Below are positions 42,268 to 43,267 of a stretch of 47,135 nt of DNA, one piece after another; the first letter of the stretch is position 1, and each line of letters opens with the position of its first letter. The notes under the pieces are model-generated. The model made no database searches, was not told the DNA's origin, and saw only the letters and a list, made by a program, of their open reading frames with translations. Origin of the DNA: an uncultured Campylobacterales bacterium. Lineage in GTDB: Bacteria > Campylobacterota > Campylobacteria > Campylobacterales > Sulfurimonadaceae. Where the stretch lies: NCBI GenBank assembly GCA_903885085.1, contig CAISHH010000131.1, forward strand, positions 1 through 47,135. The letters are read 5' to 3'. The position numbers were made by a program, and so were the translations under genes.

Positions 42268-42290
42268 AAGTAATTATATTGTAATTACTT
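42268..42290. promoter_or_regulatory. Candidate MazE/MazEF autoregulatory operator
   Basis: Perfect 9-bp inverted repeat AAGTAATTA-TATTG-TAATTACTT immediately upstream of mazE. Confidence 0.6.
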
Positions 42291-42363
42291 TTTGATGTCA
42301 AATATACTTACATCAAAGAGAACTTTACATGTAAATCATTTCAAGCTTAACTAGCGTAATGCT

Positions 42364-42804
42364 CTAACTCTTGTCACCAAAAACAATTCTATCAAGACTG
42401 AATTTCCCAGCACCTGATGTTATGAAGATCAATAGAAACAGCATATAATACACTGGTATTTCAAAACCATTATCACCACATGAGAAACCATTGTGAAGAT
42501 GAACGGTGACGATCGCAACTAACATGACGACGATAAGAGGGATGGAGATCAGTCTTATCAAAAAACCAAGAGTTAAGAGCACAACGCCCGCCATCTCGGT
42601 GCTTGCAGCCATATATGCATTTAAAGTGGGAAAAGGTATTCCAAGTGTCCCAAACCAACTTGCAACTGAATCAATATCGCTCCATTTCATCATCGCAGGT
42701 CCATAAAAACCATATGCCACAATCAGCCGTGCAAACAACAAGGAAATCGATTTACCATATCCACTCACATGAGAATATTTTAAATACAACTGTTTAACAT
42801 TCAT
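42364..42804 (-). CDS. DoxX family membrane protein
   Basis: SLLFARLIVAYGFYGPAMMKWSDIDSVASWFGTLGIPFPTLNAYMAASTEMAGVVLLTLGFLIRLISIPLIVVMLVAIVTVHLHNGFSCGDNGFEIP. Confidence 0.9.
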   Translation of the reverse strand: MNVKQLYLKYSHVSGYGKSISLLFARLIVAYGFYGPAMMKWSDIDSVASWFGTLGIPFPTLNAYMAASTEMAGVVLLTLGFLIRLISIPLIVVMLVAIVTVHLHNGFSCGDNGFEIPVYYMLFLLIFITSGAGKFSLDRIVFGDKS

Positions 42805-42848
42805 AGTAGACTCCTATTTAGAGGTTGTCTAAAAAATTGACGGCAAAA

Positions 42849-43076
42849 CTATTTTGCGTCACCGCATTTACCTGCACCACATTTTGCAGACTTTTTAGGT
42901 TCAGGTTTTTTATTTGCACCACATTTAGCGTCAGCTTTCATTTCCATCTTTTTAGCTGATCCACATTTTGATGTGGTTTTATTTGCATCACTTTTCATAT
43001 CTGCTGCACTAAGTACCGTTGTACTCATTCCTATAAAAAATGTAACTCCAAGTAGTAATGAGATGAATTTTTTCAT
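42849..43076 (-). CDS. Small secreted KCG-repeat, Lys-rich protein (bufferin/HvfA-like candidate RiPP precursor)
   Basis: MKKFISLLLGVTFFIGMSTTVLSAADMKSDANKTTSKCGSAKKMEMKADAKCGANKKPEPKKSAKCGAGKCGDAK; signal peptide, all four Cys in KCG; AGGAAA Shine-Dalgarno before this ATG (track start 43112 is upstream). Confidence 0.8.
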   Translation of the reverse strand: MKKFISLLLGVTFFIGMSTTVLSAADMKSDANKTTSKCGSAKKMEMKADAKCGANKKPEPKKSAKCGAGKCGDAK

Positions 43077-43246
43077 TCTATTTCCTTTTTTTTGTTTCAA
43101 GAGTTGTGACACTAAAATTTATCACAAGCTGATTTTACAACATTGTATTTTTCAAAACCTTTTAAAACTCTGCTTGCTGATTTTTTTAAAGTAATTATAA
43201 TATTTTCTTATTTATTATAAAGAATTGATTTGAAGTTTATTGAAGA

Positions 43247-43267
43247 AGCCCGACATTCTGTCGGGCT
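43247..43267 (-). terminator. Rho-independent-type terminator of purL
   Basis: Perfect AGCCCGACA-TTC-TGTCGGGCT hairpin just downstream of the purL stop; weak T-rich tail on the minus strand. Confidence 0.75.

Follow-up and report, generated by a model that had tools for sequence, protein, structure and literature searches.

The KCG-HvfX locus of the window and its relatives among the Campylobacterota

The window (the complete stretch of 47,135 nucleotides analysed here) encodes a KCG-repeat secreted peptide and its membrane partner HvfX, with no MNIO enzyme. KCG-HvfX loci of this MNIO-less type predominate in the phylum Campylobacterota, where they are associated with a gene pair coding for a gluconate-dehydrogenase subunit-3 family protein (GDH3) and a GMC flavoprotein. 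This association of KCG peptides with a flavin enzyme pair unrelated to MNIO suggests that they are handled by an undescribed and possibly oxygen-free route. A probability of roughly 0.5 is attached to the reading that this periplasmic flavin/iron-sulfur GDH3-GMC module replaces the O2-dependent MNIO as the oxidative partner of the KCG peptides.

Features of the locus and absence of MNIO

The peptide gene (42849..43076, minus strand) codes for a product of 75 aa, MKKFISLLLGVTFFIGMSTTVLSAADMKSDANKTTSKCGSAKKMEMKADAKCGANKKPEPKKSAKCGAGKCGDAK, in which all four cysteine residues fall within KCG motifs. The N-terminus, judged by eye, represents a typical Sec signal, and the translation thus bears out the first-pass annotation, which had described a signal-peptide protein with every Cys in KCG. 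The best curated model, NF050137 (HvfA-family KCG domain), matches the peptide with 17.9 bits, which is just below the cut-off of 19.5, and the KCG peptide of a sister cassette (L130) clears the same model with 36 bits. Its conservation indicates that the ORF did not arise by chance: an orthologue sharing 73 % amino acid identity is present in a genome of the same genus (G007), with the gene order purL-KCG-HvfX-mazE-mazF as in the window, and eleven more relatives occur among the GTDB genomes. Comparison of the window gene with that of G007 gave dN and dS values of 0.18 and 1.03, respectively (NG86), with the resulting dN/dS of ~0.18 representing a rough estimate for so short a gene. The G007 orthologue retains just the C-terminal KCGAGKCG pair, with two of the four KCG motifs lost and two cysteines left, which indicates that the Cys number of the peptide is labile; the terminal KCGAGKCGDAK is identical in both.

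The adjoining HvfX gene (42364..42804, minus strand) is located 44 bp downstream of the peptide gene, where a DoxX gene on the same strand had been annotated, and codes for a four-helix membrane protein of the DoxX family (PF07681). It scores 119 bits (cut-off 80) with the NCBIfam equivalog model NF050144 ("HvfX family Cu-binding RiPP maturation protein"), which it thereby passes, and has a dN/dS of 0.06 between the window and G007. Its AlphaFold model has a mean pLDDT of 91, with a weak match to NACHO/TMEM35A (DoxX-like) alone in Foldseek, which gives no function. With the HvfX assignment clearing a curated cut-off, the earlier proposal stands that the window encodes a KCG precursor resembling HvfA/bufferin, accompanied by HvfX/DoxX but lacking MNIO. 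The mazEF and purL genes flank the pair, as also noted previously.

By eye, Shine-Dalgarno sequences precede both genes, with that of the peptide gene (AAGGAAATAGA; 43077..43087, minus strand) situated 5' of the ATG. A hairpin observed by eye between purL and the peptide gene (AGCCCGACAGAATGTCGGGCT; 43247..43267, minus strand), which was not called by the terminator scan, probably terminates purL, so that the KCG-HvfX pair probably forms a separate unit. Upstream of the peptide gene, a dyad (TACAATGTTGTA; 43136..43147, minus strand) is identical in G007 and absent from the other cassettes examined, and is a possible genus-specific operator or regulator site. An operator common to the KCG and GMC genes was considered and rejected, as motif comparison gave none that is shared and the dyad is restricted to the genus. 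A perfect promoter for mazEF (TTGACA-17-TATAAT, 12/12) is located at 42273-42301 on the minus strand.

The first-pass annotation had further proposed that the peptide is modified in trans by an MNIO encoded outside the locus, and that MNIO and its partner protein be sought genome-wide with HMMs. The PF05114 (MNIO) profile found no match in the genome from which the window derives (2.34 Mb, 100 % complete), with control genomes positive, and no DUF2063/HvfC partner was found in this genome. With both missing, the in-trans option fails and its likelihood is considered virtually nil.

Distribution of KCG-HvfX partners across the phylum

Among 298 genomes of the phylum Campylobacterota, MNIO is present above the cut-off in 13 and HvfX in 42, with 33 of the latter lacking MNIO. 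The KCGxxKCG pattern was detected at DNA level in 46/298 genomes, against 4/298 for a frame-shifted control in which the spacing is off by one base. Approximately sixty loci were retrieved and their neighbouring genes clustered. The MNIO loci are mostly organised in the order KCG-MNIO-DUF2063-HvfX, while the MNIO-less loci very often add GDH3 and GMC. The resulting compact KCG-HvfX-GDH3-GMC cassettes are conserved, either on the same strand or divergently, with overlapping HvfX/GDH3 and GDH3/GMC reading frames in several loci, and include those of named Sulfurimonas and Sulfurospirillum MAGs. Of 43 GMC loci, roughly 28 encode a KCG peptide and/or HvfX within ~2.5 kb of GMC, and neither GMC nor GDH3 occurs locally in any of the MNIO loci retrieved.

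The association of GDH3-GMC with KCG-HvfX, and its near mutual exclusion with MNIO/DUF2063, are also evident at genome level. The GMC profile (A1) has strong matches in 45 genomes, including that of the window, and GMC and HvfX co-occur across the 298 genomes (p = 6e-24). The 42 HvfX genomes comprise 31 with GMC only, eight with MNIO only, one with both and two (G190 and G298) with neither (Fisher p = 3.3e-6); as this co-occurrence is phylogenetically clumped, a genus-level test was added (p = 0.004). Similarly, 31 of the KCG-pattern genomes contain GMC, nine MNIO, none both and six neither (p = 4.5e-6), with approximately four of the last six representing chance or non-peptide matches. DUF2063 is found in 12/13 MNIO genomes, and in 0/39 MNIO-less ones, among them the genome of the window. 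The partner type switches at least nine times on the (weakly supported) HvfX tree, which argues against a single inherited split. The peptides of the two locus types look alike, with 73 % (MNIO) and 71 % (GMC) of their cysteines within KCG. In the one genome with both systems, Sulfuricurvum MAG G066 (L275), the KCG-MNIO and KCG-GDH3-GMC clusters are located apart and each encode a KCG peptide of their own, providing a natural test bed.

GDH3-GMC was also observed with no KCG peptide detected nearby in six Campylobacterota genomes (G196, G226, G252, G281, G288 and G337) and in two, possibly three, gammaproteobacteria; a close GMC homologue occurs in 3/299 Pseudomonadota genomes.

MNIO-less precursors have previously been reported in 67/2583 Buf_EGKCG genomes, and were read as rare and either unmodified or non-functional (PMC12452194). 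What published mining treats as rare leftovers is thus common phylum-wide and is accompanied by a conserved enzyme pair of its own. Of the earlier description of the window as a reduced locus, the absence of MNIO is upheld, but "reduced" does not suffice for an arrangement which is the rule in the phylum and is associated with GDH3-GMC. No relevant report of HvfX or MNIO with GMC, or of DoxX with GMC or GDH3, was found in the literature searched, which was that outside subscription.

An FMN glutamate-synthase-like protein (cluster c7; PF01645) follows HvfX in several loci (e.g. L145 8040-9797 and L168 7355-9106). It does so in MNIO as well as GMC genomes, and was therefore rejected as MNIO replacement. 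A Met-rich version of the KCG peptide is encoded immediately ahead of GDH3-GMC in G095, the single f18/g35 genome examined (L255 5921-6337); this Met/Cys-rich peptide contains KCGSGMM/KCGDGMM motifs.

Features of the GDH3 and GMC proteins

In the genome of the window, GDH3 (C125:30940-31443; E 1.8e-45) and GMC (C125:31454-33118; E 4e-280 with the A1 profile) are encoded outside the window as an orphan pair adjoining queC. They are unlinked from KCG-HvfX, as is the case in its genus, while in most relatives the two pairs share an operon. GDH3 was identified through PF13618, with scores of 27 and 31 bits (cut-off 23.4); sequence searches against the PDB gave nothing useful. All GDH3 sequences read incorporate a Tat-like [RK]R-x-hydrophobic start. 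The GMC family matches PF00732 and PF05199, and is nearest by sequence to the FAD-dependent glucose dehydrogenase 6A2U (E 4.5e-63) and the fructose dehydrogenase 7W2J, with which Foldseek agrees.

In 6A2U, Cys212, Cys218 and Cys222 bind a [3Fe-4S] cluster beside a "hitchhiker" gamma subunit, and His476 and Asn519 form the catalytic pair (PMC6719666). The three cysteines map in the alignment to three invariant ones of the GMC family described here. His476 is, however, replaced by Leu in every member examined, and Asn519 by Pro in nearly all and Ala in a few, but is never Asn. The GMC of the window's genome has the GMC fold and the three 3Fe-4S cysteines, with Leu and Pro at the catalytic positions. 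In contrast, four canonical gluconate-dehydrogenase-type GMCs of the phylum (G218, G206, G292 and G166) retain both His and Asn at the equivalent motifs. The AlphaFold model (mean pLDDT 70.5) is poor around the active site, and the assignment of the catalytic residues derives from the sequence alignment alone. No CxxCH ORF is present within 2.5 kb of the GMC gene in the window's genome, and a cytochrome c gene is missing beside GMC in nearly all loci. On these features, the GMC protein is probably a periplasmic FAD/[3Fe-4S] electron-transfer flavoprotein, and the loss of the catalytic pair makes it unlikely that the enzymes of this family are ordinary alcohol or sugar dehydrogenases.

Comparison with known systems

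In nontypeable Haemophilus influenzae, the HvfABCX (oxazolin) operon includes an MNIO which activates O2 and converts the KCG cysteines to copper-binding 5-thiooxazoles prior to export (PMC13419390). The system of the window resembles HvfABCX and the bufferin EGKCG clusters (PMC12452194) in its signal-peptide precursor with KCG repeats and its HvfX/DoxX protein. It differs in the lack of MNIO (HvfB) and DUF2063 (HvfC), with GDH3-GMC linked or co-occurring instead, and in its AGKCG/SKCG rather than EGKCG motif; the expected hallmarks of an HvfA/bufferin EGKCG precursor also include a 5-thiooxazole (minus 4 Da) on Cys and copper binding.

The KCG-linked GMC shares its fold, the three [3Fe-4S] cysteines and a subunit-3-type Tat hitchhiker partner with the direct-electron-transfer FAD-GDH gamma-alpha complex of Burkholderia cepacia (6A2U; PMC6719666) and the Gluconobacter fructose dehydrogenase (7W2J). 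Unlike these, it is linked to KCG/HvfX, has non-His residues at the His105 position besides the substitutions of the catalytic pair, and in nearly all loci has no multihaem cytochrome c gene alongside. The canonical GMCs of the phylum are likewise encoded as a GDH3-like and GMC pair, but are only ~25 % identical to the KCG-linked family and do not occur near KCG peptides. The best NCBIfam match of the KCG-linked GMC is MftG, a mycofactocin-oxidising GMC dehydrogenase, with 50-54 bits, far under the equivalog cut-off of 387. MftG is a GMC flavoprotein which acts on a RiPP-derived molecule and feeds respiration.

Proposed role of GDH3-GMC and alternative explanations

In the favoured reading, the window would encode the peptide/membrane half (KCG peptide and HvfX) of an MNIO-free KCG-metallopeptide system, and GDH3-GMC, comprising a Tat-exported GDH3 escort and the FAD/[3Fe-4S] flavoprotein, would form the oxidative half. 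The Sec-exported peptide would meet the GDH3-GMC complex in the periplasm, where the KCG thiols may be oxidised by the FAD of GMC, or may serve as a redox or metal site that it turns over. The electrons would pass out by way of the [3Fe-4S] cluster and might reach the quinone pool through HvfX, with HvfX being the membrane component common to the MNIO and GDH3-GMC systems. The outcome could be a copper-binding periplasmic peptide made without O2, while the MNIO and DUF2063 counterpart uses O2 in the cytoplasm. Many Campylobacterota are microaerophilic or anaerobic. More tentatively, and with some doubt, GDH3-GMC may represent a new RiPP-maturing class, i.e. a periplasmic, Tat-exported, O2-independent FAD/[3Fe-4S] dehydrogenase that acts with HvfX as membrane partner on the exported peptide, oxidises its KCG cysteines and has on repeated occasions taken the place of the O2-dependent MNIO and DUF2063 in microaerophilic and anaerobic members of the phylum.

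If the GMC pair does mature the peptide, a second, O2-independent chemical route to cysteine-based metallophores would exist, and the uncharacterised HvfX would be assigned a function at the membrane/periplasm side. Failing that, a GMC family with a lost catalytic pair has still been identified, with a test substrate at hand.

Several observations count against replacement of MNIO by GDH3-GMC. The pair is unlinked from KCG-HvfX in the window's own genus, neither enzyme accompanies the HvfX of G190 and G298, and MNIO acts before export while GDH3-GMC would act after it. Furthermore, the separate peptides of the two systems in G066 indicate that these are not strictly interchangeable. The first of these points, together with the lack of MNIO and DUF2063 in the window's genome, is also compatible with a less likely but serious rival explanation, in which the KCG peptide buffers Cu or Zn through unmodified thiols with HvfX as membrane partner, requiring no maturation enzyme, and the link with GMC reflects shared ecology or regulation. 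Antoine et al. have suggested that the rare MNIO-less precursors may need no post-translational modification (PMC12452194), and proteins of other kinds found in copper or respiratory contexts can carry bare KCG tails. The operon-level linkage of GDH3-GMC with KCG-HvfX and the near exclusion of MNIO are, however, difficult to account for if GMC has nothing to do with the peptide.

The genomes with GDH3-GMC but no nearby KCG peptide imply that the substrate may be something else. GDH3-GMC, possibly with HvfX, could then be a periplasmic respiratory or detoxifying enzyme, served by the KCG peptide through metal supply, electron shuttling or thiol protection instead of modifying it. The GMC scaffold is that of electron-transferring dehydrogenases, and the DoxD-type relatives of DoxX are quinone-linked, both of which fit such a role. 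This explanation is nonetheless rather improbable, as the catalytic His and Asn of GMC are lost, and similar HvfX proteins and KCG peptides pair elsewhere with MNIO and DUF2063, in systems that use the peptide as substrate (PMC13419390). Decay of a former MNIO cluster, to which the two remaining cysteines of the G007 orthologue might point, is considered very unlikely given the dN/dS values of both genes, the identical peptide terminus and retention of the gene pair in both species, and the persistence of KCG-HvfX across many MNIO-less genera.

KCG motifs also occur on proteins other than these peptides. In the window's genome, a DsbD_2/TauE-SafE-type membrane protein with the KCG tail KMKCGPAMKCAAGKCGTGKCGSKQ is encoded (C76:27272-28066; L163 8273-9067) directly upstream of ccoN of the cbb3 oxidase, a copper-enzyme context. 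In other loci (L118, L113, L107 and L167 3651-4025), KCG motifs are present at the end of a cytochrome-c-like protein, in a secreted protein resembling FixH and in a lipoprotein encoded beside a P-type ATPase.
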